DNA of 64,000 nt, from contig RPFO01000065.1 in assembly GCA_009746045.1 (NCBI GenBank), positions 1,946,484 through 2,010,483 on the forward strand, read 5' to 3'. The position numbers were made by a program, and so were the translations under genes. Origin of the DNA: Mesostigma viride (Eukaryota > Streptophyta > Mesostigmatophyceae > Mesostigmatales > Mesostigmataceae). The notes beneath the pieces are model-generated. The model saw only the letters and a program-made list of their open reading frames with translations, was not told the DNA's origin and did not search any database. Below, piece after piece: positions 21,066 through 59,235 of the stretch (within the stretch, counting starts at the first letter, position 1; each line of letters opens with the position of its first letter).

Positions 21066-21229
21066 GGAGTAATCTGGGAGCCTGAGCCTAATGCTCCTCC
21101 TGTAGGTTTTTATCCCCCTGGAGGTTTTGTCCTCTCTGGAGAAGAGGTTTTCCTTCAGATTTGGGTTTTCCCTACAGCAGGTTACACCAACCATGCAATG
21201 ATGAGATGCAAGCTCCATAAGACCCAAGT

Positions 21230-22438
21230 GAGGGAGGGAGGGGAGGGAGGGAGGGAGGGAGGGAGGGAGGGAGGAGGGAGGGAGGAGGGAGGGAGGGAGG
21301 GAGGGAGGGAGGGAGGGAGGGAGGGAGGGGGAGGAGGGAGGGAGGGAGGGAGGGAGGGAGGGAGGGAGGAGGGAGGGAGGGAGGGAGGAGGGAGGGAGGG
21401 AGGGAGGGAGGGAGGGAGGGAGGGAGGAGGGAGGGAGGGAGGGAGGGAGGGAGGAGGGAGGAGGGAGGGAGGAGGGAGGGAGGGAGGGAGGGAGGAGGGA
21501 GGGAGGGAGGGAGGGAGGGAGGGAGGGAGGGAGGAGGAGGGAGGGAGGGAGGGAGGGAGGGAGGGAGGAGGGAGGGAGGGAGGGAGGGAGGGAGGGAGGA
21601 GGAGGGAGGGAGGGAGGGAGGAGGGAGGGAGGGAGGAGGGAGGGAGGAGGGAGGGAGGGAGGGAGGGAGGGAGGGAGGAGGGAGGGAGGAGAGGGAGGAG
21701 GGAGGGAGGGAGGGAGGGAGGGAGGAGGGAGGGAGGGAGGGAGGGAGGGAGGAGGAGGAGGGAGGGAGGGAGGAGGGAGGAGGGAGGGAGGGAGGGAGGG
21801 AGGGAGGGAGGGAGGAGGGAGGGAGGGAGGGAGGGAGGGAGGAGGGAGGAGGAGGGAGGGAGGGAGGGAGGGAGGGAGGAGGGAGGGAGGGAGGGAGGAG
21901 GAGGAGGGAGGGAGGGAGGAGGGAGGGAGGGAGGGAGGAGGAGGGAGGGAGGAGGAGAGGAGGGAGGGAGGGAGGGAGGGAGGGAGGGAGGGAGGGAGGG
22001 AGGGAGGGAGGGAGGGAGGGAGGGAGGGAGGGAGGAGGGAGGGAGGGAGGGAGGGAGGAGGATCGAGGGAGGGAGGGAGGGAGGGAGGGAGGAGGGAGGG
22101 AGGGAGGGAGGGAGGGAGGAGGGAGGGAGGGAGGGAGGGAGAGGAGGGAGGGAGGGAGGGAGGGAGGGAGGGAGGGAGGAGGGAGGAGGGAGGGAGGAGG
22201 GAGGGAGGGAGGGAGGGAGGGAGGGAGGGAGGGGGAGGGAGGGAGGGAGGGAGGGAGGGAGGGAGGGAGGGAGGGAGGGAGGGAGGGAGGGAGGGAGGGA
22301 GGGAGGGAGGGAGGAGGGAGGAGGGAGGGAGGGAGGGAGGGAGGGAGGAGGGAGGGAGGGAGGGAGGGAGGGAGGAGGGAGGGAGGGAGGGAGGGAGGGA
22401 GGGAGGGAGGGAGGGAGGGAGCCAGGGAGGGAGGGAGG
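21230..22438 (+). repeat. 1.2-kb GGGA/GGGAGGA homopurine microsatellite
   Basis: About 1.2 kb of (GGGA)n interspersed with GGA units, almost pure purine on the plus strand; one interruption reads GATCGAG near 22062 and another GCCAGG near 22422. Long open frames on both strands here (Gly-Arg-Glu or Pro-Ser-Leu repeats) are artefacts of the repeat. The strand can form G-quadruplexes and triplex DNA. Confidence 0.97.
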
Positions 22439-22444
22439 GTATGA

Positions 22445-23054: not shown

Positions 23055-23214
23055 GTGGCATTAGCCACTATATAGCTAGCTAGCTGGCTAGAGCTGTGTT
23101 ATTAATGCATTGTACTATAGGCATGTGCCCCCAAGTATGCCTTCCTGCATTGTAAATATGATGCATAATGTAATGATGTGTTGTTTGGAACCTTCTGTAC
23201 ACCAAGGTGGAATG

Positions 23215-24020
23215 ATTGCCATGAAACCCTTGGAAGAACAATAGAAAGCTGCTTTTCTGTGGTATTTATGCTAGCAGCTGTCACCAATTTGTTATCCAAC
23301 CAGCCTGAAGCTTTGTGGGCAGGCTGCATGGGATGTGTTTCGAACATGTGCCAAGTTCCAGGTCTAGCTGAGTTCATTTGATGTCATTATATACGCACAT
23401 GTGTGATGAAACCCTTGAAAAACCATGAAAAACTGCATTTTTGTGGTATTTATGCTAGCATTTGTCACCAGTTTGTCATCCAACCAGCCTGAAGCTTTGT
23501 GGGCAGGCTGCATGGGATGTGTTTCGAACATGTGCCAAGTCCCAGGTCCAACTGAGTTCATTTGATGTCATTATATATGCAAATGTGTGATGAAACCCTT
23601 GGAAAACCCTGAAAAACTGCATTTTTGTGGTGTTTATGCTAGCATCTGTCACCAATTTGTCATCCAACCAGCCTGAAACTTTGTGGGCATGCTGCATGGG
23701 ATGTGTTTAGAACATGTGCAAAGTTCCACGCCCAACTGAGTTCATTTGGTGTCATTATATATGCATATGTGTGATGAAACCTTTGGAAAACCCTGAAAAA
23801 CTGCATTTTGGGGGTATTTATGCTAGCATCTGTCACCATTTTGTGATCCAACCAGCCTGAAACTTTGTGGGCATGCTGCATGGGATGTGTTTATAACATT
23901 TGCAAAGTTCCAGGCCCAACTGAGTTCACTTGATGTCATTATATATACGCATACATGCCAGAAAGTGCTGAAAATTCGGTATTTTTATGCTAGCAAATGT
24001 CACCATGTTACCATGCTGCC
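23215..24020 (+). repeat. 184-186-bp satellite, about 4 units
   Basis: The anchor GATGAAACCCTTGGAAAA (variants) starts at about 23219, 23405, 23589 and 23773. Each unit contains TTTATGCTAGCA, TGTCACCA, ATCCAACCAGCCTGAA, TGCATGGGATGTGTTT and a central ATTATATATGC. A partial diverged unit ends near 24020. Minus-strand frames of 65-91 residues repeat with the unit and are not genes. Confidence 0.9.
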
Positions 24021-24164
24021 GACTCCCAAAAACTTATTTGACCACATGCCACCATAAGATATCTGATTAGGCACCTTGGTGCCAAATTTGAGGCCAAACT
24101 GACTATTAGCCTATCTTGAAATAATTTTCAGGGAATAAAAACGCGTTTTTGGATTGATGTGGAT

Positions 24165-24240
24165 ATTCACGACTAAATTCGGTGCTCAAACGTGAAAGTT
24201 ATGAGCTCCGCCGTCAGCCCTGGCTACCTCGTGGCTCGTG
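24165..24240 (-). mobile_element. LINE 5'-region fragment
   Basis: The reverse complement matches the segment upstream of ORF1 at 11.85-11.93 kb and 41.16-41.24 kb (ACGAGGTAGCCA, CATAACTTTCACGTTTGAGC, ACCGAATTTAGTCGTGAATAT). Only about 75 bp remain. Confidence 0.75.
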
Positions 24241-24513
24241 GGCTTAGCAGCATACCATGATTGCCTTAGCAGCATACCATGAAAGCCCAGGGTGATTACA
24301 GGTAATAATTTTTTCATGCCCTGGTCGGCTCAAGTCCTGCCTTGCTCGTCTTCAGTTTTGGTACCCGAGCATTGTCCTGCTCAAGCCGTACTGACGTACT
24401 GTCTTTCCAAACCAACTCCAACTGCAGCGTTCCTAGGATTCAGATGGTACGGGCCGGGCTGACGGCCTGACGCCGCGCCGCTGGACCTTAGGTCTGGCCT
24501 TCAGGACTTAGGT

Positions 24514-24690
24514 GGTTGACGAATACCCTAAACATTTCGTCAAACCGGTTGACGAACTTCGGAACATATACGTCAATTGATTGGTTGACGAATTGCCGAG
24601 TTGGTTGACGAATGTGGTTGACGAATTGCCCAAAATGGTTGACTATTTTACTACTATTTTCAAAATTCGTCAAACGGTTGACGAAATAGT
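24514..24690 (+). promoter_or_regulatory. cluster of GGTTGAC motifs (W-box-like)
   Basis: GGTTGAC occurs seven times in 175 bp (24514, 24547, 24583, 24603, 24616, 24638, 24675), mostly as GGTTGACGAA, with inverted TTCGTCAAAC at about 24536 and 24666. TTGAC is the core of the W-box bound by plant WRKY factors. Spacing is irregular, so it is not a simple tandem repeat. Regulatory function is inferred only. The same cluster at 30459-30635 is part of the duplicated block. Confidence 0.45.
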
Positions 24691-24959
24691 CCCGTTAGCA
24701 AAAGCACTGCGGCACGGTTTACAGGATGCTTCGACAGGTCCTGAATGTAGGGTTTTCCACGCATAGGTCATTAGAGTCTTTGTATCAGGGTATGCCTCGC
24801 ATTTCGGACGAGATAGTAAGTAAGTAAGTAAGTACTAAGACGAGATAGGCGGCGTAAGATAGCATTTGTAGGACATCTTGCTCGCACCAGCCAGGTAGAT
24901 ACCGCGGCCCTTGGTCTGGCCGTTCCCCAGCAGCTTGGCCAACCACTGAGGGCGGCACA

Positions 24960-25200
24960 TCCTGACCTGGCCTGGCCCCAAGGACATTCCCAGAAAGCTG
25001 GGTAAATTAAACCTGCCATGAACTACATCCAGACGTTGCTGGCCGACCTAGTGGTCCCAGCTCAGTTTGAACACCGCATTCACTCCCTCTCTCTTGCTTG
25101 GACTGCTATGCAGAACAAGAAGAGGTGGCAGTTCTAAGATTGTCCAGGCTCACATGCCAGCCCCTGTGGGCAAGCCCCCTCCCCCCAAGCGGAAGTGAGG
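24960..25200 (+). pseudogene. possible C-terminal coding remnant of a retroelement
   Basis: The frame MNYIQTLLADLVVPAQFEHR, then SLSLAWTAMQNKKRWQ, resembles the Trp/Arg-rich C-terminal tail seen in some non-LTR polyproteins. Similar sequence occurs at 39.97-40.11 kb (LAWTAMQNKKRWQKIVQAH) and, diverged, at 36.73-36.85 kb (LSVIWTKMMDKAKWAQVIED). Three copies sharing this frame suggest real coding ancestry, but the family is not identified. Confidence 0.35.
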
Positions 25201-25325
25201 GGCGCTTTGCTGAGTAGTGTCAAGGAGACTACCAGCGCAGGCCAGATATCGGGAGAATCCGGACCATGGTAGCTCAGTGTACGTAGTTAGGATTTTCTAG
25301 ACTAGTTAGCTTAGAGTTAGCTTTA

Positions 25326-25395
25326 ACCCGTGTTTTTTTACAACGCGATGTATCGCGTTGTAGGGTTAGAACGCGATGTATCGCGTTGTAATCTG
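25326..25395 (+). repeat. double CGCGAT palindrome (repeat-element terminus)
   Basis: After AACCCGTG and a T run come two inverted-repeat motifs. The first, ACAACGCGAT-GT-ATCGCGTTGT, is a perfect 10-bp-arm palindrome; the second, AACGCGAT-GT-ATCGCGTT, is separated from it by AGGGTTAG. The same arrangement, same or opposite strand and more or less complete, is at 31270, 39840-39873, 55817-55876 and 58189-58256. It therefore marks one end of a dispersed repeat. It could extrude as a cruciform. Confidence 0.8.
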
Positions 25396-25720
25396 ACACG
25401 TGGCAGGCACAGTAGATACGAGATTTTCGGTCTGAAACTCGGTGGACGGCCTCCTTACATCCCGTAGAACTCAAGAAAAAATCCTGGTATTTTTTGGATT
25501 TTTTTTGTGACAGCTGCAAACAAATATGTACCACTGAAATCAGGCATTTTCGCGGGACGAAGGTGAAGACGACGGCGATGGCGGCAGGTAGATCTCGCCA
25601 GTTTTCGCGCGTCGGAATTTCAGTGGCTGTTGGGTGGCATGACCATGATGATGCGTTCAAAGGTTGATAATTAGGTTTCTACGAGTTTGTTGAGGTACTG
25701 GGGCAAAGGAAACGTAGATT

Positions 25721-27801
25721 CGTGTATCCATTGCTCCCACTCCACCAACTTCTTATTGAAAACATTAAGTGGTCGCTTAAAATGGACAGCAAAATGGCGT
25801 CCACTGCCATTTGCAGTTCTCCGAGCAAAGTTTGCGAAACCCCAAGACAACAAAACACAGGGAGGGTGGGTGGGCAAGAAAAAAGACCTTCCCCTTCCTC
25901 GCAAGGTCCCTAAAAAGACGACACAACACGCTACATGGCAACGCCCCTAAAAAAATCCCAGCCTTACTGACACAACTAATGTCAGACCGGCAACTACGAA
26001 ATGTCAGCAAAATGATTCGAGTCAGAACTTTTAACTACACTAGTCGCCAATCAAAGGCAGTTTCAGGCCAGCATACAAAATTAAAAGGCCTTATAAATAC
26101 GACCTTTTTAACCGCCTGAACAACAACGAAAACTGCCCGTAACTAATCACCCAGTTACAAAATCCAAACTGATTATCATCCGCTAAAAACGGCCCTAGTC
26201 GCCGGCCATGCCAGCGAAACTGGAACCCCAAGAGCGTGCCACGTAATCTTTGCCGCCGTCAGGAACACTTCGATTGCGGCGTTCGTTCTCGCCCATTATA
26301 AGAAACTATTTTCAGAGAAATCCGATTCGTGTATCCATTGCTCCCACTCCACCAACTTCTTATTGAAAACATTAAGTGGTCGCTTAAAATGGACAGCAAA
26401 ATGGCGTCCACTGCCATTTGCAGTTCTCCGAGCAAAGTTTGCGAAACCCCAACTCCCCCACGCCTGGCTGACTCAAAGCCGCTCCCCTCTTTCCAAGGAC
26501 CGCGTGTCCATTGAGAATGCCCTGCCGCAATGGACCCCGTTTTAACACCAGCAGCTGTGGATGCATTGATGCACTGTTATAGGTAACCACATTCTCGCGA
26601 ATTGACCCTTTGCAGGGCCCGCCACCGACCCCAAAGAAGGCCTCCCCTCTGATCGGCAACAGGAGTTGTTGTTGTTGCGAAGACAAAGCAGAAGACACAG
26701 CGATCAAGCAATTACCGTAACCCCAAGTTTCGTTTCTCACTATATTTCGCCACGACCCCTTTAGGAGAGCATCGTCCTTGACAGGGGGCACACCCCCGCA
26801 CCTACCATGCTAACAGATTTACCGTTAGGCATATAATCAAGGCCGCATATCAGCCCTCACCCCCAGCGCCGAGACCGCGCGCCAAACAACGGTGTGGGTG
26901 AAAATATTTTTAAATTTATTAAAATTATCGCCACGACCTCAACTAGTCCAACCCGGAGCGCAAGCATCCCCAGGTACGAACCAGCCCAAGGCAGGCCAGC
27001 CAACGTCACAGAACCTTAACCCGAAGCGCAAGCATCCTCAGGTACAAGGCTGCCACGCAGGCCAGCCCTTCCGTTTCGACAAGCAGATCTTCCCCTTCAT
27101 ATTCGATCTGAATATTGCACTAGCGCAGCCCAACCTCCTGCGCAGATTCCCAACCATCCGGACCCAGATCCAAAGTGAGAATCAGTCCGGACACTTGGCA
27201 GCCGCTGTGACTTCCGTGAAACCGGAAGCTCAGGGGCTGCCGCCCGTCTGTTAATTTAATTAAGCCCTGCGCCCGAGCGGGCACAAGGCCGGGGAGGCGT
27301 CGGCATTCCTTGCATCACCATAGCCTCGGCCAACGCGTGCCCAGCGTCATGCAAGAAAAAAGACCTTCCCCTTCCTCGCAAGGTCCCTAAAAAGACGACA
27401 CAACACGCTACATGGCAACGCCCCTAAAAAAATCCCAGCCTTACTGACACAACTAATGTCAGACCGGCAACTACGAAATGTCAGCAAAATGATTCGAGTC
27501 AGAACTTTTAACTACACTAGTCGCCAATCAAAGGCAGTTTCAGGCCAGCATACAAAATTAAAAGGCCTTATAAATACGACCTTTTTAACCGCCTGAACAA
27601 CAACGAAAACTGCCCGTAACTAATCACCCAGTTACAAAATCCAAACTGATTATCATCCGCTAAAAACGGCCCTAGTCGCCGGCCATGCCAGCGAAACTGG
27701 AACCCCAAGAGCGTGCCACGTAATCTTTGCCGCCGTCAGGAACACTTCGATTGCGGCGTTCGTTCTCGCCCATTATAAGAAACTATTTTCAGAGAAATCC
27801 G
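25721..27801 (-). mobile_element. split-direct-repeat element SDR-1 (non-autonomous)
   Basis: On the plus strand the order is a1 (25721-25845), a 28-bp G-rich linker, b1 (25874-26324), ATT, a2 (26328-26452), an 898-bp internal region, and b2 (27351-27801). The a copies are 125 bp and the b copies 451 bp, essentially identical. ATT stands immediately left of a1, between b1 and a2, and right of b2. Read on the minus strand this is A-internal-B-A-B, the split-direct-repeat plan of PAT/Ngaro tyrosine-recombinase elements and Chlamydomonas TOC1. The internal region has no recognisable protein. The host sequence without the element is present in inverted form at about 57866. Confidence 0.85.
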
Positions 27802-27804
27802 ATT

Positions 27805-28670
27805 TTTCCAGTTTCTCACCCAACTTTCATGCGGAAACCCTGGAAACCGGTTTACATATTATTACGGCAAGACTCGGGTCTGCTGCGGCACCATGCTTGG
27901 TATTTCCATGGTGTTTCGACTTCTTAACACATGTTTATTCATTCCGAACGCCCGGACTCTCGGCTAAACCGAGATTTGTGCAGACTTTTATTGGGTAGCT
28001 CCGGGCATGATGGTGCCTGCAATTAGCGTAAGGCGTGACCGTGGCTATTGCTACGGTATGCTGTATTTTCCTGGAAATGGCCTCTGCCACCGGCTCAATA
28101 GTGCTTGCAGGCGTAAGAATGTCGTGTTTCTATCTAGTTTCTGCCAGTTTTCCACTTATCTCTACCGACCTCTGCCCAGCCTCTCTAAGACCGCCATCCT
28201 ACTCGACGTTGCTTGCATGTCAGCCATAGCAGGTTGCAGCTGTGCAGTATTTAGGTGCTGTATACGTCGTCAAGCCGTGAATATATCGTGAGGATTGGAT
28301 ATTGATGGTTTATACTGCGTTGATTGTGCAAGAAGATCAGCTAGGTGCCCATATTTATGGTGTATAATCATGTGTTGTTAGCATCTTGCCACCATTTGCT
28401 AGCATGCATTCCAGCGTCATCTTTGCCTGCATGTAAGCTCATGGATCACTCAACCTATCCAAGCCTTGCATTAAAAACATGCCTCTTTCTTTCAGTATTG
28501 CACACGTTATGGAATGAAAACCCAGTGCCTCCCTTCCCACGAGGCATGTGCTCAACACGTTGTGAGAGTGGATGATGCTTTGGCTATGGCTGCCTGATTC
28601 AGTCATATTATGTCATCCAGTCATGATGTTTGATGCATGTTTGATGCTGTATAACTTATACAACACCTAT
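27805..28670 (+). repeat. host repeat between SDR-1 and SDR-2
   Basis: This stretch and 25396-25717 are one dispersed repeat, present inverted at 56281-58256 without either SDR element. No protein domain is recognised. In the inverted copy the same sequence instead carries a SINE-like insertion. Confidence 0.8.
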
Positions 28671-28876
28671 TCATGTCCCACGTAGCTCCCACAAAAACCA
28701 GCATCTTCATTAAAACAATAAGTGGAAGCATACATGTGACACTAATTGACATGCCCGGAGGCACGCCGTTCAAGGCCCTTCATGAAGTACGTTGCCCTAG
28801 AGGCAACCAAGACACGGGTGGGTGGGTGGGGAGCAAAGAAAGAGGCCGACAAAACCAGCCAGAGCGGCTTTTAGTC

Positions 28877-29000
28877 NNNNNNNNNNNNNNNNNNNNNNNN
28901 NNNNNNNNNNNNNNNNNNNNNNNNNNNNNNNNNNNNNNNNNNNNNNNNNNNNNNNNNNNNNNNNNNNNNNNNNNNNNNNNNNNNNNNNNNNNNNNNNNNN
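28877..29000. other. assembly gap (124 N)
   Basis: A run of undetermined bases, flanked by near-identical contig ends as described for the 5.82-kb block. The gap probably has no biological length. Confidence 0.99.
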
Positions 29001-32000
29001 GTGGCATTAGCCACTATATAGCTAGCTAGCTGGCTAGAGCTGTGTTATTAATGCATTGTACTATAGGCATGTGCCCCCAAGTATGCCTTCCTGCATTGTA
29101 AATATGATGCATAATGTAATGATGTGTTGTTTGGAACCTTCTGTACACCAAGGTGGAATGATTGCCATGAAACCCTTGGAAGAACAATAGAAAGCTGCTT
29201 TTCTGTGGTATTTATGCTAGCAGCTGTCACCAATTTGTTATCCAACCAGCCTGAAGCTTTGTGGGCAGGCTGCATGGGATGTGTTTCGAACATGTGCCAA
29301 GTTCCAGGTCTAGCTGAGTTCATTTGATGTCATTATATACGCACATGTGTGATGAAACCCTTGAAAAACCATGAAAAACTGCATTTTTGTGGTATTTATG
29401 CTAGCATTTGTCACCAGTTTGTCATCCAACCAGCCTGAAGCTTTGTGGGCAGGCTGCATGGGATGTGTTTCGAACATGTGCCAAGTCCCAGGTCCAACTG
29501 AGTTCATTTGATGTCATTATATATGCAAATGTGTGATGAAACCCTTGGAAAACCCTGAAAAACTGCATTTTTGTGGTGTTTATGCTAGCATCTGTCACCA
29601 ATTTGTCATCCAACCAGCCTGAAACTTTGTGGGCATGCTGCATGGGATGTGTTTAGAACATGTGCAAAGTTCCACGCCCAACTGAGTTCATTTGGTGTCA
29701 TTATATATGCATATGTGTGATGAAACCTTTGGAAAACCCTGAAAAACTGCATTTTGGGGTATTTATGCTAGCATCTGTCACCATTTTGTGATCCAACCAG
29801 CCTGAAACTTTGTGGGCATGCTGCATGGGATGTGTTTATAACATTTGCAAAGTTCCAGGCCCAACTGAGTTCACTTGATGTCATTATATATACGCATACA
29901 TGCCAGAAAGTGCTGAAAATTCGGTATTTTTATGCTAGCAAATGTCACCATGTTACCATGCTGCCGACTCCCAAAAACTTATTTGACCACATGCCACCAT
30001 AAGATATCTGATTAGGCACCTTGGTGCCAAATTTGAGGCCAAACTGACTATTAGCCTATCTTGAAATAATTTTCAGGGAATAAAAACGCGTTTTTGGATT
30101 GATGTGGATATTCACGACTAAATTCGGTGCTCAAACGTGAAAGTTATGAGCTCCGCCGTCAGCCCTGGCTACCTCGTGGCTCGTGGGCTTAGCAGCATAC
30201 CATGATTGCCTTAGCAGCATACCATGAAAGCCCAGGGTGATTACAGGTAATAATTTTTTCATGCCCTGGTCGGCTCAAGTCCTGCCTTGCTCGTCTTCAG
30301 TTTTGGTACCCGAGCATTGTCCTGCTCAAGCCGTACTGACGTACTGTCTTTCCAAACCAACTCCAACTGCAGCGTTCCTAGGATTCAGATGGTACGGGCC
30401 GGGCTGACGGCCTGACGCCGCGCCGCTGGACCTTAGGTCTGGCCTTCAGGACTTAGGTGGTTGACGAATACCCTAAACATTTCGTCAAACCGGTTGACGA
30501 ACTTCGGAACATATACGTCAATTGATTGGTTGACGAATTGCCGAGTTGGTTGACGAATGTGGTTGACGAATTGCCCAAAATGGTTGACTATTTTACTACT
30601 ATTTTCAAAATTCGTCAAACGGTTGACGAAATAGTCCCGTTAGCAAAAGCACTGCGGCACGGTTTACAGGATGCTTCGACAGGTCCTGAATGTAGGGTTT
30701 TCCACGCATAGGTCATTAGAGTCTTTGTATCAGGGTATGCCTCGCATTTCGGACGAGATAGTAAGTAAGTAAGTAAGTACTAAGACGAGATAGGCGGCGT
30801 AAGATAGCATTTGTAGGACATCTTGCTCGCACCAGCCAGGTAGATACCGCGGCCCTTGGTCTGGCCGTTCCCCAGCAGCTTGGCCAACCACTGAGGGCGG
30901 CACATCCTGACCTGGCCTGGCCCCAAGGACATTCCCAGAAAGCTGGGTAAATTAAACCTGCCATGAACTACATCCAGACGTTGCTGGCCGACCTAGTGGT
31001 CCCAGCTCAGTTTGAACACCGCATTCACTCCCTCTCTCTTGCTTGGACTGCTATGCAGAACAAGAAGAGGTGGCAGTTCTAAGATTGTCCAGGCTCACAT
31101 GCCAGCCCCTGTGGGCAAGCCCCCTCCCCCAAGCGGAAGTGAGGGGCGCTTTGCTGAGTAGTGTCAAGGAGACTACCAGCGCAGGCCAGATATCGGGAGA
31201 ATCCGGACCATGGTAGCTCAGTGTACGTAGTTAGGATTTTCTAGACTAGTTAGCTTAGAGTTAGCTTTAACCCGTGTTTTTTTACAACGCGATGTATCGC
31301 GTTGTAGGGTTAGAACGCGATGTATCGCGTTGTAATCTGACACGTGGCAGGCACAGTAGATACGAGATTTTCGGTCTGAAACTCGGTGGACGGCCTCCTT
31401 ACATCCCGTAGAACTCAAGAAAAAATCCTGGTTTTTTTGGATTTTTTTTGTGACAGCTGCAAACAAATATGTACCACTGAAATCAGGCATTTTCGCGGGA
31501 CGAAGGTGAAGACGACGGCGATGGCGGCAGGTAGATCTCGCCAGTTTTCGCGCGTCGGAATTTCAGTGGCTGTTGGGTGGCATGACCATGATGATGCGTT
31601 CAAAGGTTGATAATTAGGTTTCTACGAGTTTGTTGAGGTACTGGGGCAAAGGAAACGTAGATTCGTGTATCCATTGCTCCCACTCCACCAACTTCTTATT
31701 GAAAACATTAAGTGGTCGCTTAAAATGGACAGCAAAATGGCGTCCACTGCCATTTGCAGTTCTCCGAGCAAAGTTTGCGAAACCCCAAGACAACAAAACA
31801 CAGGGAGGGTGGGTGGGCAAGAAAAAAGACCTTCCCCTTCCTCGCAAGGTCCCTAAAAAGACGACACAACACGCTACATGGCAACGCCCCTAAAAAAATC
31901 CCAGCCTTACTGACACAACTAATGTCAGACCGGCAACTACGAAATGTCAGCAAAATGATTCGAGTCAGAACTTTTAACTACACTAGTCGCCAATCAAAGG

Positions 32001-34819
32001 CAGTTTCAGGCCAGCATACAAAATTAAAAGGCCTTATAAATACGACCTTTTTAACCGCCTGAACAACAACGAAAACTGCCCGTAACTAATCACCCAGTTA
32101 CAAAATCCAAACTGATTATCATCCGCTAAAAACGGCCCTAGTCGCCGGCCATGCCAGCGAAACTGGAACCCCAAGAGCGTGCCACGTAATCTTTGCCGCC
32201 GTCAGGAACACTTCGATTGCGGCGTTCGTTCTCGCCCATTATAAGAAACTATTTTCAGAGAAATCCGATTCGTGTATCCATTGCTCCCACTCCACCAACT
32301 TCTTATTGAAAACATTAAGTGGTCGCTTAAAATGGACAGCAAAATGGCGTCCACTGCCATTTGCAGTTCTCCGAGCAAAGTTTGCGAAACCCCAACTCCC
32401 CCACGCCTGGCTGACTCAAAGCCGCTCCCCTCTTTCCAAGGACCGCGTGTCCATTGAGAATGCCCTGCCGCAATGGACCCCGTTTTAACACCAGCAGCTG
32501 TGGATGCATTGATGCACTGTTATAGGTAACCACATTCTCGCGAATTGACCCTTTGCAGGGCCCGCCACCGACCCCAAAGAAGGCCTCCCCTCTGATCGGC
32601 AACAGGAGTTGTTGTTGTTGCGAAGACAAAGCAGAAGACACAGCGATCAAGCAATTACCGTAACCCCAAGTTTCGTTTCTCACTATATTTCGCCACGACC
32701 CCTTTAGGAGAGCATCGTCCTTGACAGGGGGCACACCCCCGCACCTACCATGCTAACAGATTTACCGTTAGGCATATAATCAAGGCCGCATATCAGCCCT
32801 CACCCCCAGCGCCGAGACCGCGCGCCAAACAACGGTGTGGGTGAAAATATTTTTAAATTTATTAAAATTATCGCCACGACCTCAACTAGTCCAACCCGGA
32901 GCGCAAGCATCCCCAGGTACGAACCAGCCCAAGGCAGGCCAGCCAACGTCACAGAACCTTAACCCGAAGCGCAAGCATCCTCAGGTACAAGGCTGCCACG
33001 CAGGCCAGCCCTTCCGTTTCGACAAGCAGATCTTCCCCTTCATATTCGATCTGAATATTGCACTAGCGCAGCCCAACCTCCTGCGCAGATTCCCAACCAT
33101 CCGGACCCAGATCCAAAGTGAGAATCAGTCCGGACACTTGGCAGCCGCTGTGACTTCCGTGAAACCGGAAGCTCAGGGGCTGCCGCCCGTCTGTTAATTT
33201 AATTAAGCCCTGCGCCCGAGCGGGCACAAGGCCGGGGAGGCGTCGGCATTCCTTGCATCACCATAGCCTCGGCCAACGCGTGCCCAGCGTCATGCAAGAA
33301 AAAAGACCTTCCCCTTCCTCGCAAGGTCCCTAAAAAGACGACACAACACGCTACATGGCAACGCCCCTAAAAAAATCCCAGCCTTACTGACACAACTAAT
33401 GTCAGACCGGCAACTACGAAATGTCAGCAAAATGATTCGAGTCAGAACTTTTAACTACACTAGTCGCCAATCAAAGGCAGTTTCAGGCCAGCATACAAAA
33501 TTAAAAGGCCTTATAAATACGACCTTTTTAACCGCCTGAACAACAACGAAAACTGCCCGTAACTAATCACCCAGTTACAAAATCCAAACTGATTATCATC
33601 CGCTAAAAACGGCCCTAGTCGCCGGCCATGCCAGCGAAACTGGAACCCCAAGAGCGTGCCACGTAATCTTTGCCGCCGTCAGGAACACTTCGATTGCGGC
33701 GTTCGTTCTCGCCCATTATAAGAAACTATTTTCAGAGAAATCCGATTTTTCCAGTTTCTCACCCAACTTTCATGCGGAAACCCTGGAAACCGGTTTACAT
33801 ATTATTACGGCAAGACTCGGGTCTGCTGCGGCACCATGCTTGGTATTTCCATGGTGTTTCGACTTCTTAACACATGTTTATTCATTCCGAACGCCCGGAC
33901 TCTCGGCTAAACCGAGATTTGTGCAGACTTTTATTGGGTAGCTCCGGGCATGATGGTGCCTGCAATTAGCGTAAGGCGTGACCGTGGCTATTGCTACGGT
34001 ATGCTGTATTTTCCTGGAAATGGCCTCTGCCACCGGCTCAATAGTGCTTGCAGGCGTAAGAATGTCGTGTTTCTATCTAGTTTCTGCCAGTTTTCCACTT
34101 ATCTCTACCGACCTCTGCCCAGCCTCTCTAAGACCGCCATCCTACTCGACGTTGCTTGCATGTCAGCCATAGCAGGTTGCAGCTGTGCAGTATTTAGGTG
34201 CTGTATACGTCGTCAAGCCGTGAATATATCGTGAGGATTGGATATTGATGGTTTATACTGCGTTGATTGTGCAAGAAGATCAGCTAGGTGCCCATATTTA
34301 TGGTGTATAATCATGTGTTGTTAGCATCTTGCCACCATTTGCTAGCATGCATTCCAGCGTCATCTTTGCCTGCATGTAAGCTCATGGATCACTCAACCTA
34401 TCCAAGCCTTGCATTAAAAACATGCCTCTTTCTTTCAGTATTGCACACGTTATGGAATGAAAACCCAGTGCCTCCCTTCCCACGAGGCATGTGCTCAACA
34501 CGTTGTGAGAGTGGATGATGCTTTGGCTATGGCTGCCTGATTCAGTCATATTATGTCATCCAGTCATGATGTTTGATGCATGTTTGATGCTGTATAACTT
34601 ATACAACACCTATTCATGTCCCACGTAGCTCCCACAAAAACCAGCATCTTCATTAAAACAATAAGTGGAAGCATACATGTGACACTAATTGACATGCCCG
34701 GAGGCACGCCGTTCAAGGCCCTTCATGAAGTACGTTGCCCTAGAGGCAACCAAGACACGGGTGGGTGGGTGGGGAGCAAAGAAAGAGGCCGACAAAACCA
34801 GCCAGAGCGGCTTTTAGTC
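29001..34819. repeat. 5.82-kb block, right contig-start copy (likely false duplicate)
   Basis: Second copy of 23055-28876; features recur at +5946 on the left, falling to +5943 on the right after three single-base deletions. It repeats the satellite, the GGTTGAC cluster, the CGCGAT palindromes and SDR-1 (here 31664-33744). These should not be counted as independent loci. Confidence 0.93.
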
Positions 34820-36572
34820 GCAAAACCTCCCTTATCCCTAGCTAACTGACGTCATTAAACCCTTATGTTTAGTGGATGCTAGTAAGACGCTAACCGTACA
34901 AACCGGGGTAGAATATCCCGAATCTGCACGGCTAGTATTAAATAATGCGTAGGTTGTTCTTTTCAGGGGCACTGCACCTCACGCCCCGTTCCGCCCGGGT
35001 ATAATCAACCCAAGCGCGGAACGCACATTTTATTTAATTCATTTTTCAACCATGCACTATATTGCATCTACTAATCACAAAAGCTCTAGCCAAACAGCTA
35101 CGAGTAAACACTACGACCTATAAGCCGCTCATCCAGCGGCCTCTTGTTCCCGCATTCACGTATAGAAGAAACTCCGTTCAAAGAACCCCGATTCATGTCC
35201 CACGTAGCTCCCACAAAAACCAGCATCTTCATTAAAACAATAAGTGGAAGCATACATGTGACACTAATTGACATGCCCGGAGGCACGCCGTTCAAGGCCC
35301 TTCATGAAGTACGTTGCCCAATCACCCCCGCCCTGGCTTTCCCTTGAAGCCGCACTCCACCTTGCTCGTTGTCACAAGTGACCGCCCTGCCGCAAAACGG
35401 GAGCCCCCCCACATCGGGAGGCGTGTGCCCGGCGGCTGTGGATGCATGGCCAGGCCCAAAAAGGCCCAGCGCATTTGCACTGCGATTGCGCACGGCCAGC
35501 CTATCATGACCCCTCTCGGGGCCCCGAGTCGGTACCGCTATGGCCGTCTCCCCATAGACCCGGGGTGCTTCGAGAAAAAACGTGGACCTAGCCCAGGCCC
35601 CGCCAGCCCGGATGCCCGAGGCCACAGCCCCAGGCACCTGGCTGAACGAGAGTCCGTTCAGCCAAGACCGCATTCCCCCCGAGGTTTCTATGCGTGGGGA
35701 AAAAATTTCTAGCTTAGGCGCTTTTCCCATCGCCGTCCCCAGCCCCAACCACCCCCCCCTCGGCGGAAGGCAATTGCAAAGTTTGCTGGCCAGCAGCAAT
35801 TTCCGAAGAAAAAGCCGCAGGCCGCGGACCGAGACACGGGTCGCCAGTGCCAGCCATCCGGCTCCAACCCGGGGTGCAAGCATCCCCAGGTACGGAGCAC
35901 CAGCTCGCGCACTGGGCCGACCAAGCGACAGTTGAGCACCTGTCACGGCATCCGGCCCACCAAAGACCCCAAGCTGGGGAAAAGGTGCGGACCGGAGGTA
36001 ATCATTTTCTTTTCTTTTAGTTAACCGAGCGAGGAACTACGCCTGGCCGGTTAACAACTGGAAGTCTCACCACTGGCCAAGTGGCCAGTGCAACCAGTGC
36101 TTTTGGGATTTTGCTCCGCAGCACCCATAGCTGCGGCTGCCGCCGCAACGACAACGAGCAAAGAAAGAGGCCGACAAAACCAGCCAGAGCGGCTTTTAGT
36201 CGCAAAACCTCCCTTATCCCTAGCTAACTGACGTCATTAAACCCTTATGTTTAGTGGATGCTAGTAAGACGCTAACCGTACAAACCGGGGTAGAATATCC
36301 CGAATCTGCACGGCTAGTATTAAATAATGCGTAGGTTGTTCTTTTCAGGGGCACTGCACCTCACGCCCCGTTCCGCCCGGGTATAATCAACCCAAGCGCG
36401 GAACGCACATTTTATTTAATTCATTTTTCAACCATGCACTATATTGCATCTACTAATCACAAAAGCTCTAGCCAAACAGCTACGAGTAAACACTACGACC
36501 TATAAGCCGCTCATCCAGCGGCCTCTTGTTCCCGCATTCACGTATAGAAGAAACTCCGTTCAAAGAACCCCG
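34615..36572 (-). mobile_element. split-direct-repeat element SDR-2 (same family as SDR-1)
   Basis: On the plus strand: a1 (34615-34740, 126 bp), a 33-bp linker with GGGTGGGTGGG, b1 (34774-35190, 417 bp), ATT (35191-35193), a2 (35194-35319), an 836-bp internal region, b2 (36156-36572). ATT also lies at 34612-34614 and 36573-36575. It shares short blocks with SDR-1: CTCCCAC near the a start, ATAAGTGG, CTGTGGATGCAT and GCAAGCATCCCCAGGTAC internally, and AGAAACT then CCG at the b end. The two are therefore diverged members of one family. The empty site, matching exactly with one ATT, is inverted at about 56301. An incomplete copy at 28672-28876 is due to the assembly overlap. Confidence 0.85.
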
Positions 36573-36639
36573 ATTTTCAACGTTTTGACCCTCCTAGCTC
36601 ATGATATCCCCGTTTATCACGTTTGTCACGTGGCCCCCC

Positions 36640-43434: not shown

Positions 43435-46018
43435 CTGTCGCGTCCGTGATCTATCACGTCCGCAATTCAGATTTTAGCGTAATTCTGACGTCCGCAGCCT
43501 TGTGCGGGTTGCTATACCGCGGCCCGGTACTGACGCCGCGGATCTCAATTGTACTCACGCGCCGAGTCCGCTGAATTTGCTGACGGAACTTTTGGGCGGA
43601 CCTGAATTTCACTGACATTCGTCACAAGGGCAGTTTGCCGAATGCTGGTACGCAGCAAGCCGGCGAGGCACTGAGCAGATGTGCAATTTCAGGATTTCAA
43701 CGTGGGACACCAGACACAAATGCAAGGAAGCCCCAGGCGGTGCCTGGCATAGCCGATAGATTTGCCCTTGTATATTTGTGTTCGCTTGACAGATAAAGCG
43801 TGAAGTTTAGCTTGTCGGAAATTAGACAATGTTATGATTGGCTGATGTCTAAAGTGGCGCTAGTGGCGCCAGCCGCCAGGCTTGAGCTTTGAGCAGTATA
43901 GAAGGATGAGCAACGAACCATGGTGGTCGTTGTTCGTCCGTTTCTCTCCCTCACAACTGGTTTGTTGTCGTCATGGGGTGAAATAGTTCGAGCAGCCCGG
44001 AGCAGCCCCCGTGAGTGGTTGCATGCAGTCAGTTGCCATGAGGATGGACTGACGGATATGACAATGTATTGGTTTTGTTAAGAATGTGTGTAAGACTGAG
44101 AACGAGACAAGGGACAGGGCCTTCGGGCACCCTGGTCGTCGTTGGCAAGAATGCCAGTAGGAACTAGGTCGGGAACACACGCGCACTGCCGCCACAAGGG
44201 GCCTGCAGTGGCGTCAACCAAGGGACCTCACAGCTGCTCTTATAACTACAACATTACAACTCGACACTCTTTGTAATTCGTCATGTATCTCATTGGAATT
44301 GAAATGTCTTTTGGTTGCTTTAATGATAAAGCATGGTCTCAATAATCGGCTGGTTGGGCCGGATTGCCTGTCATGAAGGTGGCGGTGCCATAAAGGACCG
44401 CACCTTTCATTCTCATTTTAAACGGACGAACAACCCATGATGGGTTCAGTCCGGCCAGCCTGGGGTTCCTCCTGCTTCACCCAGGGAAGCACAAGGAAGA
44501 GGTTATTGCTTAGCCTTCAAAAGCATCTGAAGAGGTTAGGCTTTTCCCTGAAAAAGCCATTGAAGAGGTTATTGCTTAGCCTTCAAAAGCATCTGAAGAG
44601 GTTAGGCTTTTCCCTGTAAAAAGCCATTGAAGGGGTTATTGCTAAGCCTTTAAAAGCATGCGTGTTAAGGTTGTTGCTGATCCTGGAAAAGCATCTTTGA
44701 GCAGCTGGATTTTTTTTTTCCTTTTTGCTGCTGCCTGGAATGACGCCCTCTTTGGGCTTCCTTCTTTAGTGTGAGATGCCTTTCTTTCACTTTTTGCTCT
44801 CACGTTGTTGTGAGCTAAATAGTGGGGGGGAGGTGGCATATCTCACACATGATTACTGCTGATAGTGGATGCATTCCAAGTAGCGGTAATGACCAGTCCA
44901 GGATGATATGGCACGCAAACGCGACAGCTGTCGCGTCCGTGATCTATCACGTCCGCAATTCAGATTTTAGCGTAATTCTGACGTCCGCAGCCTTGTGCGG
45001 GTTGCTATACCGCGGCCCGGTACTGACGCCGCGGATCTCAATTGTACTCACGCGCCAAGTCCGCTGAATTTGCTGACGGAACTTTTGGGCGGACCTGAAT
45101 TTCACTGACATTCGTCACAAGGGCAGTTTGCCGAATGCTGGTACGCAGCAAGCCGGCGAGGCACTGAGCAGATGTGCAATTTCAGGATTTCAACGTGGGA
45201 CACCAGACACAAATGCAAGGAAGCCCCAGGCGGTGCCTGGCATAGCCGATAGATTTGCCCTTGTATATTTGTGTTCGCTTGACAGATAAAGCGTGAAGTT
45301 TAGCTTGTCGGAAATTAGACAATGTTATGATTGGCTGATGTCTAAAGTGGCGCTAGTGGCGCCAGCCGCCAGGCTTGAGCTTTGAGCAGTATAGAAGGAT
45401 GAGCAACGAACCATGGTGGTCGTTGTTCGTCCGTTTCTCTCCCTCACAACTGGTTTGTTGTCGTCATGGGGTGAAATAGTTCGAGCAGCCCGGAGCAGCC
45501 CCCGTGAGTGGTTGCATGCAGTCAGTTGCCATGAGGATGGACTGACGGATATGACAATGTATTGGTTTTGTTAAGAATGTGTGTAAGACTGAGAACGAGA
45601 CAAGGGACAGGGCCTTCGGGCACCCTGGTCGTCGTTGGCAAGAATGCCAGTAGGAACTAGGTCGGGAACACACGCGCACTGCCGCCACAAGGGGCCTGCA
45701 GTGGCGTCAACCAAGGGACCTCACAGCTGCTCTTATAACTACAACATTACAACTCGACACTCTTTGTAATTCGTCATGTATCTCATTGGAATTGAAATGT
45801 CTTTTGGTTGCTTTAATGATAAAGCATGGTCTCAATAATCGGCTGGTTGGGCCGGATTGCCTGTCATGAAGGTGGCGGTGCCATAAAGGACCGCACCTTT
45901 CATTCTCATTTTATGGGGGGGGGAGGTGGCATATCTCACACATGATTACTGCTGATAGTGGATGCATTCCAAGTAGCGGTAATGACCAGTCCAGGATGAT
46001 ATGGCACGCAAACGCGAC
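43435..46018 (+). mobile_element. split-direct-repeat element SDR-3, inserted in hAT transposase
   Basis: The order is A1 (43435-44420, 986 bp), internal (44421-44821), B1 (44822-44927), A2 (44928-45913, 986 bp), B2 (45914-46018). A1 and A2 differ at one base that I noticed (G/A near 43564/45057); B1 and B2 differ only in the length of a G run. CATGCC borders the element on both sides, and the B1/A2 junction CGCGACAGCTGTCGCG is itself a palindrome. The internal region has no recognisable protein. A simple LTR element is excluded because B2 lies outside the second A copy, and hAT coding sequence resumes only after B2. Confidence 0.85.
44501..44700 (+). repeat. 66-bp tandem repeat inside SDR-3, 3 units
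   Basis: GGTTATTGCTTAGCCTTCAA starts at 44501 and 44567 and in diverged form at 44634. Each unit also holds AGGTTAGGCTTTTCCCTG. The repeat makes up about half of the element's internal region. Confidence 0.85.
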
Positions 46019-46542
46019 ATGCCGGCCACCATCTGCTTGAAAGAGGCGCTCTCAGCCGCATTGAAGGCAATGCCGTTCTCGATAAAAAATTCGGCAGCCA
46101 GCAGCTGGACACCTTTCTCGTCGACGGGAACCAGCCATTTGGTGATGCTCAGCTGGCCTTTGCTGGGAACCGACGACAAGTCAGCCGGCGCAGCCCCTCC
46201 CATCTCCGCCATTGCCCTGTTCAAATTGTGCTGCTTCTTGGCGTCTGACTGCTGCGACTTGTTGTTATACATCCTGAGAAACTTGCTCCGGATATTCGGT
46301 GGAATTTTGTCGCAGGGTAACATCCCTTCCCCTGCGATTCCGGCAAAGTGTGCACGGACTCGGAATACGCTGATTGCCCCCGCCCCGTATGAGAACTTCT
46401 TGTTGCAAAATGAGCAGAACTTATTCGACACAAACTGCGTTTTGTTACTAACAGCATCTGTGACTGCTTCTTTCTTCTCGAGAACGAAATCCCATTCAGG
46501 CCCTTTCTTCCTCATGGCTGCAAATCGAAAATGGCTGCACAC
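46019..46542 (-). pseudogene. hAT transposase, N-terminal part with BED-like zinc finger
   Basis: On the minus strand, from MRKKGPEWDFV a BED-like finger follows (FCSFCNKKFSYGAGAISVFR, then a histidine in VRAHFAG). After a linker with MYNNKSQQSDAKKQ comes the hAT motif AEFFIENGIAFNAAES, SFKQMVAGM. The start at 46542 or the internal Met of MRKKG is uncertain. Transposase would bind terminal inverted repeats and cut out the transposon; none of these repeats were found. The frame is interrupted at 46018 by SDR-3 and continues at 43434. Confidence 0.75.
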
Positions 46543-51987: not shown

Positions 51988-51999
51988 ATATTTACAAGG

Positions 52000-55816: not shown

Positions 55817-56290
55817 AACCCGTGTTTTTTTAATTAGAACGCGATATATCGCGTTGTAAGCTTTTTTTAGAACGCGTATAGCACCTAAGGAAAATTTTTT
55901 TTCATGGTCATGTATATACTTTCCTGAAAGCCCATAAATCAAAGGATTTTTTGAGCTACTCAGACCTACAAAATGCTTATTCATTAGAGAGATACACTGG
56001 TTTGAATACAGGGGGGTCTGACCATGACCGCGATTTCTTGACCCTAGGTCACAAGTCATGTGCTTATTCACAAATGGTTCATGAAAAAAATCTGGCTTCT
56101 TGCACGAGCTATGGGCAACATATGCAGGCTCTGTGAAACAAAACTCAGGCCCATTGGGCCACTGGAGCTATTTTTCATTAGCATCACAATTACAACGCAG
56201 TACAACGCAGTGGGAAACATGAGAGCCCTTGACAACATTACGCAACGACCCGAGCCCCATAAACGGGGCCATAGTGAGCTTGGAGGGTCA
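55817..56290 (-). repeat. CGCGAT-palindrome repeat, inverted relative to 39.6-39.9 kb
   Basis: It starts AACCCGTGTTTTTTTAATT with AGAACGCGATATATCGCGTT, then the shared sequence described at 39620-39880. It continues to GGAGGGTCAAAACGTTGAAA, where the larger inverted repeat with 25-36 kb begins. Confidence 0.8.
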
Positions 56291-58256
56291 AAACGTTGAA
56301 AATAGGTGTTGTATAAGTTATACTGCATCAAACATGCATCAAACATCATGACTGGATGACCTAATATTCTGATCAGACACTCCGCAAAGGTGAAAACCTT
56401 TGCGTTCAGTGCCAGGCCGCGGAAAACGCGGAAAACGCGATCTGCAAATGAATCCGACCGGAATCGAACTGGGGACCTCTCGCACCAATTTTGCTGACTA
56501 TAGGACGGACGTCTCCGGTTACCATGGCATCGCCAACTTACACCTACAGTCATCCGCAAAAGTTCTCCTGTCCGGGGAGTGATGCAAGCCTTTCGGATTT
56601 GGTACTAGATAAATCACTCGAGATCTGTGTGTAGGAGTACTACACACGTGTCTGCACGCGAGACTTGTTCAGTCTCGCACCGTGAGACGGGCTGAACACG
56701 GCTGAATCCTTCTTTTTAGTAGAAGGGGGCGTAGCCGGTACTATCGAAATCAGCCAAGCGTATATTCTGATCAGACACTCCGCAAAGGTGAAAACCTTTG
56801 CGTTCAGTGCCAGGCCGCGGAAAACGCGGAAAACGCGATCTGCAAATGAATCCGACCGGAATCGAACTGGGGACCTCTCGCACCAATTTTGCTGACTATA
56901 GGACGGACGTCTCCGGTTACCATGGCATCGCCAACTTACACCTACAGTCATCCGCAAAAGTTCTCCTGTCCGGGGAGTGATGCAAGCCTTTCGGATTTGG
57001 TACTAGATAAATCACTCGAGATCTGTGTGTAGGAGTACTACACACGTGTCTGCACCTAATATGACTGAATCAGGCAGCCATAGCCAAAGCATCATCCACT
57101 CTCACAACGTGTTGAGCACATGCCTCGTGGGAATGGAGGTGCTGGGTTTTCATTCCATAACGCGTGCAATACTGAAAGAAAGAGGCACGTGTAATGCAAG
57201 GCTTGGATAGGTTGAGTGATCCATGAGCTTACATGCAGGCAAAGATGACGCTGGAATGCATGCTAGCAAATGGTGGCAAGATGCTAACAACACATGATTA
57301 TTCACCATGATTATGGGCACCCAGCTGATCTTCTTGCACAATCAACGCAGTATAAACCATCAACATCCAATCCTCACGATATATGCACGGCTTGACGACG
57401 TATACAGCACCTAAATACTGCACAACTGCAACCTGCTATTGCTGACATGCAAGCAACGTCGAGTAGGATGGCGGTCTTAGAGAGGCTGGGCAGAGGTCGG
57501 TAGAAATACGTGGAAAACTGGCAGAAACTAGGTAGAAACACGATATACTTACGCCTGCAAGCACTAAATATTGAGCCGGTGGCAGAGGCCATTTCCAGGA
57601 AAATACAGCATACCGTAGCAATAGCCACGGTCACGCCTTACGCTATTTGCAGGCACCATCATGCCCGGAGCTACCCAATAAAAGTCTGCACAAATCTCGG
57701 TTTAGCCGAGAGTCCGGGCGTTCGGAATGAATAAACATGTGTTAAGAAGTCGAAACACCATGGAAATACCAAGCATGGTGCCGCAGCAGACCCGAGTCTT
57801 GACGTAATAATATGTATGCCGGTTTCCAGGGTTTCCGCATGAAAGTTGGGTGAGAAACTGGAAAAAACTACGTTTCCTTTGCCCCAGTACCTCAACAAAC
57901 TCGTAGAAACCTAATTATCAACCTTTGAACGCATCATCATGGTCGTGCTACCCAACAGCCACTGAAATTCGCGCGAAAACTGGCGAGATCTACCTGCCGC
58001 CATCGCCGTCGTCTTCACCTTCGTCCCGCGAAAATGCCTGATTTCAGTGGTACATATTTGTTTGCAGCTGTCACAAAAAAAATACCAAAAATACCAGGAT
58101 TTTTTCTTGAATTCTATGAGATGTTTCTGACCTATCTTGAAAGTTTCAGACCAAAAATCGCATGTTTAATAGGTTTGCCACGTGTCAGATTACAACGCGA
58201 TACATCGCGTTCTAACCCTACAACGCGATGTATCGCGTTGTAAAAAAACACGGGTT
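56281..58256 (-). repeat. inverted paralogue of the 25.3-36.6 kb host repeat, lacking SDR-1 and SDR-2
   Basis: Read in reverse it runs from AACCCGTG with both CGCGAT palindromes (58256) to GTTTTGACCCTCCA (56281). It is colinear with 25326-25717, 27805-28670 and 36576-36597, skipping both SDR elements. It has its own insertion, a SINE-like dimer at 56368-57053. It is diverged by base substitutions, so it is an older copy and not an assembly artefact. Confidence 0.88.
56368..57053 (-). mobile_element. dimeric tRNA-derived SINE-like element (second copy)
   Basis: Flanked by the 9-bp direct repeat ACCTAATAT (56359-56367 and 57054-57062). Two apparently identical 283-bp units, offset 398 bp (56371-56653 and 56769-57051), are separated by a spacer with the AGACTTGTTCAGTCTCG hairpin. 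On the minus strand each contains the tRNA-like segment with B box AGTTCGATTCC. The uninserted sequence exists at 28600 (CATATTATGTCATCC), confirming the borders. The perfect identity of the units contrasts with the divergence of the host repeat. Confidence 0.7.
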
Positions 58257-59235
58257 AATGCAATACTTGTTGACTTGGATCATGACCCACACAATCATAT
58301 CATAACTGTAACCTTATATGAATCTGGCATGGCAACATGAAATAAGCACATGTGCATTACACACAGCATAATGAATACACGCAAGTCCCCACGTTTTTTT
58401 TTTTTGGAAATGCTACAAGTTTACATTTTCAGCTCTTGCATTACCCTTGGTATCTTTTTTTTTTTTGCAGGGCTGCGTTAGGAAAAAAGCACAGGACGTA
58501 AGTGTTTTAGCCGTGCAGTAACCCTTGATAGCAGCGCTTTTTTTTTGCAGGGCTGACTTAGGCAAAAAACACAAGTCCTAAGCCAAAAGCATATTTGCGT
58601 CATAAAGTAGGTTTGGCTTTGGACTTAGGTTTTTTTCATTACTTAGGTAAGTTTGAAAAAAAAAAGTCTGAAAGTCCGGGCAAAGGTGAATACAACAAAA
58701 AACAATCCCCATCCATCATGGAATATGTGCTACATGACCTCCCCATGTAGCACATATTCCAAGAGGCATGTTATAATTTAATTTAATTTAATTTATCGAG
58801 GCAGCTGAAAAACTATGAAAAGAATCTTCTATAATACAACTGAAACAAAATTTTCTGCACTGTTAACTATCATCTATCTTAAGTGAGACATCCAATCTGC
58901 TCCACACTCAAAAATCCGAACCAGGGATGCCAGCACAAGAACTATACCTATATATTGGATGTACTTCAAGCCAATGAAAGAATTCCACCCTCATCCGCAA
59001 ATATTCCACCTTTGCAGAATTCCTGCTTCAACCATAAACATGGGTTCGCTAAAGCCAGTACATAAATAAAGCCAAATTACAGGCCTGCCGACCACCGGAT
59101 CCAAGATCCATGCATTTCCTGTATAAACGGGCCAGCCCCAGTAGGTATGGTGAGGCGAACGTATGGAAGTAAAATGCCAGGGGAACATCTGCTACAAAAC
59201 CGGGACAAGCAGCATTCTTGTAGGGGGAAGATGAC
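58257..59235. other. intergenic, 3' of OEP24
   Basis: Contains T-runs (58397, 58457, 58540), a 17-bp-arm inverted repeat (GGAATATGTGCTACATG and its complement at 58719-58761) and an (AATTT)n tail to about 58795. These mark a LINE/SINE-type 3' end near the gene. No coding frame is supported. Polyadenylation of OEP24 would fall below 59236; no signal was assigned. Confidence 0.5.

Follow-up and report, generated by a model that had tools for sequence, protein, structure and literature searches.

Two probable families of non-autonomous split-direct-repeat retrotransposons in Mesostigma viride, with outer junctions that vary in a fixed way

The 64,000-nucleotide stretch of Mesostigma viride DNA analysed here (contig RPFO01000065.1 of assembly GCA_009746045.1, positions 1,946,484 to 2,010,483; hereafter the window) contains two elements, SDR-1 and SDR-2, in which two repeats, a and b, each occur twice in direct orientation with ATT at every junction. 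What kind of mobile DNA has this structure, and how does it choose its target? We conclude that the elements are real, that the evidence for them is good and that they belong to a known kind. Very likely they represent two families of non-autonomous split-direct-repeat (SDR) tyrosine recombinase (YR) retrotransposons, mobilised in trans by a reverse transcriptase (RT) and a YR that other SDR elements of the genome provide. Our analysis adds an exchange point between bases 1 and 2 of the target, a target arm, YR-coding relatives and a corrected copy number.

Both elements read ATT-a-linker-b-ATT-a-internal-b-ATT to the base level; all parts are assigned to the minus strand except the cores, which have no strand. 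SDR-1 is 2,087 bp long, and its clean copy, terminal ATT triplets included, lies at 31661..33747. From left to right it contains the terminal ATT (31661-31663), a (31664..31788; B2 in sense), the linker (31789..31816), b (31817..32267; A2), the internal ATT core at the b-ATT-a junction (32268..32270), the second a (32271..32395; B1), the internal sequence (32396..33293), the second b (33294..33744; A1) and the right terminal ATT (33745-33747). The corresponding parts of SDR-2 (1,964 bp; 34612..36575) are at 34612-34614 (terminal ATT), 34615..34740 (a, B2), 34741..34773 (linker), 34774..35190 (b, A2), 35191..35193 (internal ATT core), 35194..35319 (a, B1), 35320..36155 (internal), 36156..36572 (b, A1) and 36573-36575 (terminal ATT). 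For SDR-1 and SDR-2 respectively, a is 125 and 126 bp, the linker 28 and 33 bp, b 451 and 417 bp, and the internal sequence 898 and 836 bp. Within each element the two copies of a are identical letter for letter, as are the two copies of b. The longest open frame seen in the SDR-1 internal sequence is at most 141 aa; the internal sequence of SDR-2 overlaps a stop-to-stop frame of 244 aa (35302-36036, minus strand).

The two elements resemble each other only in part. Local alignment scores are 33 for a (top of 200 shuffles, 23) and 56 for the internal sequence (top, 31), and the score of 21 for b is within the range of 200 shuffles. The similarity is strongest in two blocks, one of 85 bp spanning the b-ATT-a junction (73%, E 5e-7) and one of 32 bp within the internal sequence (94%, E 4e-9). 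In the final 45 bases of b 25 positions match, whereas offset windows gave no more than 20. Just before the core, a short inverted repeat is visible by eye in each element, TTTC-AGA-GAAA in SDR-1 (33725-33744) and GTTC-AAA-GAAC in SDR-2 (36553-36572), the two differing by one paired change. An Rfam scan of the window gave no match at the gathering score, and one internal motif had no exact match in viral contigs. The part lengths and ATT positions that an earlier note on this DNA had given are thus exact, and the elements are, as it described, similar in blocks only.

A copia-type ORF of the window shows 100% identity to a Mesostigma viride gene model. Genome-wide searches covered the 440-Mb Mesostigma viride assembly, and it was the best-scoring candidates, not random samples, that were scored. 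With a+linker+b of SDR-1 as query, the best 40 of 127 candidates were scored and all 40 examined; five with the same flanks as another locus (L002, L003, L012, L023 and L034) were dropped, leaving 35 distinct loci. A second a, full or partial, is present in 31 of the 35, and both copies of b in 27, of which 23 were found in the first stretches and four behind nested insertions (L043, L044, L046 and L048). In four further loci (L009, L011, L033 and L040) the second b was not seen within the fetched stretch, and four consist of a solo a-linker-b unit (L010, L024, L031 and L036), such as b1 x b2 recombination would generate. For SDR-2, the best 40 of 1,290 first-look candidates, at about 100% identity, were scored, and 39 of these 40 units have another a three bases downstream. 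Across 20 SDR-1 loci, mean differences are smaller within an element than between loci (1.85 vs 3.17 for b; 0.95 vs 1.33 for a); homogenisation of the repeats at insertion, which this may reflect across the genome, is weakly supported, because the within-element differences are not always zero. L043 and L044 each have an insertion of about 1.7 kb in the second a, the break being marked by a repeat of about 4 bp of a.

The junctions were compared at 34 left ends of SDR-1 and 20 of SDR-2, and at 27 right ends of SDR-1 (including L037) and 19 of SDR-2, with 26 and 19 two-ended copies respectively; the left end of L037 (first a truncated) and the right end of L100/L101 (element end not found) were excluded, and the left end of L038 was counted as ATT (alignment offset). 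The internal junction is ATT in all 31 SDR-1 loci that have one. The outer junctions vary in a fixed way: the left triplet is NTT at 53 of 54 ends (33/34 for SDR-1, 20/20 for SDR-2) and the right triplet is ANN at all 46 (27/27 and 19/19), and the target therefore need not be ATT. The two outer triplets differ from each other in 29 of the 45 two-ended copies; in the other 16 they agree, as ATT in 15 and as AAT in one (L035). Five copies with a triplet other than ATT at both ends follow the same rule (left/right: L007, CTT/ATA; L008, TTT/ATC; L010, TTT/AGT; L031, TTT/AAT; L094, TTT/ACT). On a simple reading of these junctions, a TT-a...b-A unit would enter the target after base 1 and before bases 2-3, without any duplication. 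The target can then be assembled from base 1 of the left end and bases 2-3 of the right end, giving, for the 45 copies, ATT (15), TTT (9), CTT (4), AAT (4), ATA (3), GTT (3) and seven others once each.

Empty-site paralogs, drawn from sequence that had already been fetched, cover eight insertions, and in these no longer target duplication was seen. The empty site is ATT for the SDR-2 of the window (one paralog), for L013 (two paralogs, one identical across 203 bases), for the SDR-2 copy L110/L111 (three alignments) and for the copy L096/L097. For copy L104/L105, with TTT at the left and ATT at the right, the empty site is TTT, as the rule predicts. At L020 it is ATG in a 94% paralog in which the following base also differs, and at L039 it is AGT in a gapped 84% paralog, a weak case. 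The window itself includes a host-repeat paralog (56259..58261, minus strand) with both insertion sites empty, that of SDR-1 at about 57864-57866 and that of SDR-2 at about 56301-56303.

The sequence to the left of the exchange point also shows preferences. Seven bases left of base 1 (position -7) the target has A in 30 of 34 SDR-1 insertions (p 4e-14) and 17 of 20 SDR-2 insertions (p 6e-8), 47 of 54 in total, these being binomial values uncorrected for the number of positions tested. Further preferences are for A at -6 with SDR-1 (24/34) and A at -9 with SDR-2 (13/20), and to the right of the core we saw no signal in SDR-1 or SDR-2 targets as strong as that of the left arm. The b ends of SDR-1, SDR-2 and a YR-coding family described below, family (i), carry RAGAA at -10 to -6, which puts A at both -7 and -6, so that the element end and the left arm of the target resemble each other.

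Which enzymes could act on these ends? A genome search with the YR domain PF00589 gave 824 candidates, of which the best 150 were scored, all 150 above the cut-off. We examined one member of each of three groups (L070, L071 and L072), together with L073, which covers the 3' end of another member of L070's group, family (i). L073 reads B1-AAT-A2-linker-B2-AAT with B1 and B2 direct, and L071 and L072 have B1-A2-linker-B2 at their 3' ends and a partial A at their 5' ends. In L070, L071 and L072 the PF00589 domain closes the open reading frame (ORF), and upstream of this domain the ORFs are related to P0006, through which they are linked to RT; P0006 scores 28.8 against RVT_1, just below the curated cut-off of 29.6. 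By eye, the three ORFs contain what we take to be RNase H motifs and recombinase residues and, in all three, presumed 2A-like NPGP motifs in the interval from the RNase H region to the recombinase. A methyltransferase had no Pfam match in the three ORFs even at an E of 10, a search in which Pfam likewise missed their RT. Four PF00589 matches, three on C2011 and one on C1532, far outscore the rest (E 7e-23 to 1e-44), and may be of another kind or a contaminant.

In sense orientation, the junction of SDR-2 aligns with L070 for 94 bp at 75.5% identity (E 5e-9 for this single comparison). Against L073, the junction scores are 68 for SDR-2 (top of 100 shuffles, 35) and 43 for SDR-1 (top, 29), and among the three YR families this likeness of the b-ATT-a junction is limited to family (i). 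Because the junction matches the YR relatives in sense orientation, the sense strand of the window elements is the minus strand. At 5895-6333 of L070, B2 breaks off after 30 bp, and an inverted A (430 bp, 99.5% identical to A2 of L073) comes next. We considered this A as an inverted repeat of DIRS1 type and rejected that, as it is absent from L073; we take it for a damaged or aberrant 3' end.

These results bear on the remaining proposals of the earlier note. The relatives, with the same layout and junction and a YR, support its placement of the elements among circle-integrating YR elements; the junction match agrees with its minus-strand order, A-internal-B-A-linker-B; and the eight empty sites agree with integration lacking a conventional target duplication. 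It had described two copies, and these are present, although the window is only a sample, in which one SDR-1 is very probably a false duplicate, and 35 SDR-1 loci are found across the genome. ATT was proposed as the core at every junction; the internal junction is indeed conserved, but both outer ends are ATT in only 15 of 45 copies. A search for an autonomous partner with the same ends was also suggested, and YR/RT relatives share the layout and, in family (i), the junction, but the internal sequences do not single out the partner of either family (E 0.2). Many single-unit copies, or junctions varying freely, were named as grounds for abandoning the proposal; we found solo units at four of 35 SDR-1 loci, and outer triplets that vary, but not freely, as NTT and ANN (53/54 and 46/46).

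The linker is a further shared feature. The SDR-1 linker with the next base contains GGGAGGGTGGGTGGG (31803-31817, plus strand), and the SDR-2 linker contains GGGTGGGTGGGTGGG (34759-34773, plus strand). Within the window the pattern (G3N)3G3 occurs only in these linkers and in a simple repeat at 21.2-22.4 kb; the latter is a long GGGA-type repeat (21227-22439) adjoining a copia-type element. The tract is exact in 33 of 35 SDR-1 loci (L020 by eye), with one base changed in each of L017 and L019, and (G3N)3G3 is also found at the A2-B2 linker of L070, L071, L072 and L073. Five otherwise unlike families thus share it, the three with a YR as well as SDR-1 and SDR-2. We considered whether the linker forms an RNA hairpin and rejected this, as folding of five linkers was no better than that of shuffles; as a guess, the tract may be a signal in the G-rich cDNA strand.

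If SDR-1 and SDR-2 are indeed YR retrotransposons, with the sense order A1-internal-B1-A2-linker-B2, an RNA spanning A1 to B2 would be reverse transcribed, and the internal B1-A2 junction could then act as a template or splint that restores the ends and closes a circle. The B-A junction of the circle would read AAT, that is, ATT on the plus strand. A recombinase would bind the same half-site (RAGAA, or A at -7) in the element and in the target, and an ATT core would be a preference, not a requirement. More tentatively, and we regard the two together as doubtful, the recombinase may use a one-armed site, in which a single half-site, and not 3-bp identity, directs exchange at the step from base 1 to base 2 of a loose core, and the G-quadruplex-type linker tract may be a replication or circularisation signal new to the order.

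Several observations weigh against this account. No circle, RNA or new insertion was observed, and only best-scoring candidates were examined. None of the relatives examined is complete at both ends: the 5' A of L070 was not found in 1.9 kb upstream of its ORF, that of L071 is without its start, that of L072 runs off the stretch, and L073 is a 3' end only. The L072 frame, moreover, starts within the RT region. Beyond the junction and linker, the SDR internals match the relatives at an E of 0.2 at best, too weakly to single out a partner for either family. The diverged L035, with AAT as its left triplet, is the lone exception to NTT. Finally, both ends of the window's SDR-1 (L001) are ATT, yet two empty-site paralogs have TTT where an A is expected at base 1; this disagrees with the rule of exchange between bases 1 and 2, unless the copy that received the element had an A.

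An alternative explanation, which we consider improbable, is that the elements move as DNA circles only, excised and reinserted by a tyrosine recombinase, with copies rising by replication and no RNA step. Cryptons move by tyrosine-recombinase excision and reinsertion of circles. The junctions, empty sites and target preference bear on the recombination step, and the RNA step is one that we infer. The relatives, however, encode RT-related sequence beside the recombinase, and in published accounts retro-elements of this order carry a doubled B-A junction (PMC4157794, PMC8547959). At C2:4749163-4750450 there is a tandem SDR-2 array, a-linker-b, a-linker-b, a, with units 3 bp apart, and it is compatible with either explanation.

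That same array, the solo a-linker-b units at four of 35 SDR-1 loci and the equal outer triplets in 16 of 45 two-ended copies are what might be expected if a-linker-b and a-internal-b were separate insertions of a cut-and-paste transposon with a 3-bp target duplication, juxtaposed by chance. We think this very improbable. The order is repeated at 27 of 35 SDR-1 loci and, as far as the parts were seen, in 39 of 40 SDR-2 units; a fresh target duplication would not leave the unequal outer triplets found in 29 of 45 copies; and the relatives that share the junction encode a tyrosine recombinase. No linker-less a-internal-b unit was seen in the 35 loci, although the a+linker+b query could hardly find one.

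That the repeats are products of mis-assembly has almost no probability, since the same architecture is present at tens of loci with differing flanks on many contigs, even though a 5.82-kb block at a gap in the window is very probably such a product. The two copies of this block, 23055-28876 and 29001-34819, are 99.95% identical, with three 1-base indels between them over 5.82 kb. They flank a gap of 124 N (28877-29000), whose two edges coincide exactly with the ends of the repeat. The SDR-1 at 25718..27804 and the gap-cut start of SDR-2 at 28669..28876 (both minus strand) very probably belong to an unmerged contig overlap, and because of this the former was left out of the copy count. The flanks of the window SDR-1 recur on the 24-kb contig C725 (L003), which also bears an SDR-2 unit.

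Other repeats lie nearby. The host-repeat paralog at 56259..58261 has another insertion at 56364-57055, in which 294-bp direct repeats surround 104 bp and ATATTAGG borders the insertion on either side; what seems to be a second copy is split between 49796-50348 and 51849-51991. At 43436-46019 the order is b-403 bp-a-GC-b-3 bp-a, and this is possibly the 'first family' of the earlier reader. We rejected it as an element of the ATT kind: each unit has TGTCGCG...CGCGACA ends, TGCC is present on both outer sides, and the mechanism looks different.

How do these elements compare with known systems? SDR-1 and SDR-2 have A1-B1-A2-B2 split direct repeats and no inverted terminal repeats of the DIRS1-like kind. 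Their internal B-A junction is the predicted circle junction, with no longer duplication and with one of eight empty sites (L001) off by one base, and their outer triplets, unequal in 29 of 45 copies, are unlike the equal ones of a DDE element with a 3-bp duplication. YR and RT relatives with the same ends are present, the junction being common to family (i) only and the RT assigned via P0006. Mesostigma, an early-branching streptophyte, has abundant recombinase genes and many near-identical gene-less copies, natural insertions that reveal the integration site and open the point of strand exchange and the target half-site to testing. Among PAT elements, TOC1 of Chlamydomonas is a non-autonomous example. 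In the published work consulted, circle closure and target choice of split-direct-repeat elements are deduced mostly from structure, and the NTT/ANN asymmetry was not found for such elements in the open-licence literature, in which the search aimed at the exact pattern was limited. The main text of two Mesostigma genome papers does not contain the word DIRS (PMC6947507, PMC7027972).

DIRS1-like elements are described as having a 3-bp junction that recombines with an identical genomic triplet without target duplication, and NTT termini, most often ATT, complementary to the circle junction; some have unequal end triplets (GTT/GAT, TTT/TAT) (PMC3266345). One element is listed with ends GTT or AA (PMC9210276), and verified circles are reported for DIRS-1 (PMC5633606). 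SDR-1 and SDR-2 are alike in their NTT left triplets, in the frequency of ATT and in a model of integration without target duplication, but have split direct repeats in place of inverted terminal repeats. SDR layouts are described for PAT, Kangaroo, TOC, Ngaro and VIPER (PMC4157794, PMC6681497, PMC8547959, PMC9210276). The PAT group, including TOC and Kangaroo, is similar in that its green-algal members carry split direct repeats (PMC4157794, PMC3266345, PMC8226300), with PAT-like elements in relatives of Chlamydomonas (PMC8226300); PAT is placed in a group with a methyltransferase domain, whereas the three Mesostigma ORFs gave no Pfam match to one, in a search that also missed their RT. Ngaro is defined by the lack of that domain, by internal repeats downstream of the YR and by its RT clade. 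Ngaro and VIPER, from Cafeteria, Xenopus and trypanosomatids, have an A1-[ORFs]-B1-A2-B2 layout, which that of the Mesostigma relatives (L071-L073) fits, and solo AB repeats are described for Cafeteria (PMC8547959, PMC9210276, PMC6681497), as solo units are found for SDR-1. This likeness is one of layout, and SDR-1 and SDR-2 differ in having no recognisable ORF. The short VIPER relative SIRE of Trypanosoma cruzi is likewise short and corresponds to an A2-B2 stretch (PMC6681497), whereas SDR-1 and SDR-2 retain all four repeats and an internal sequence of their own.

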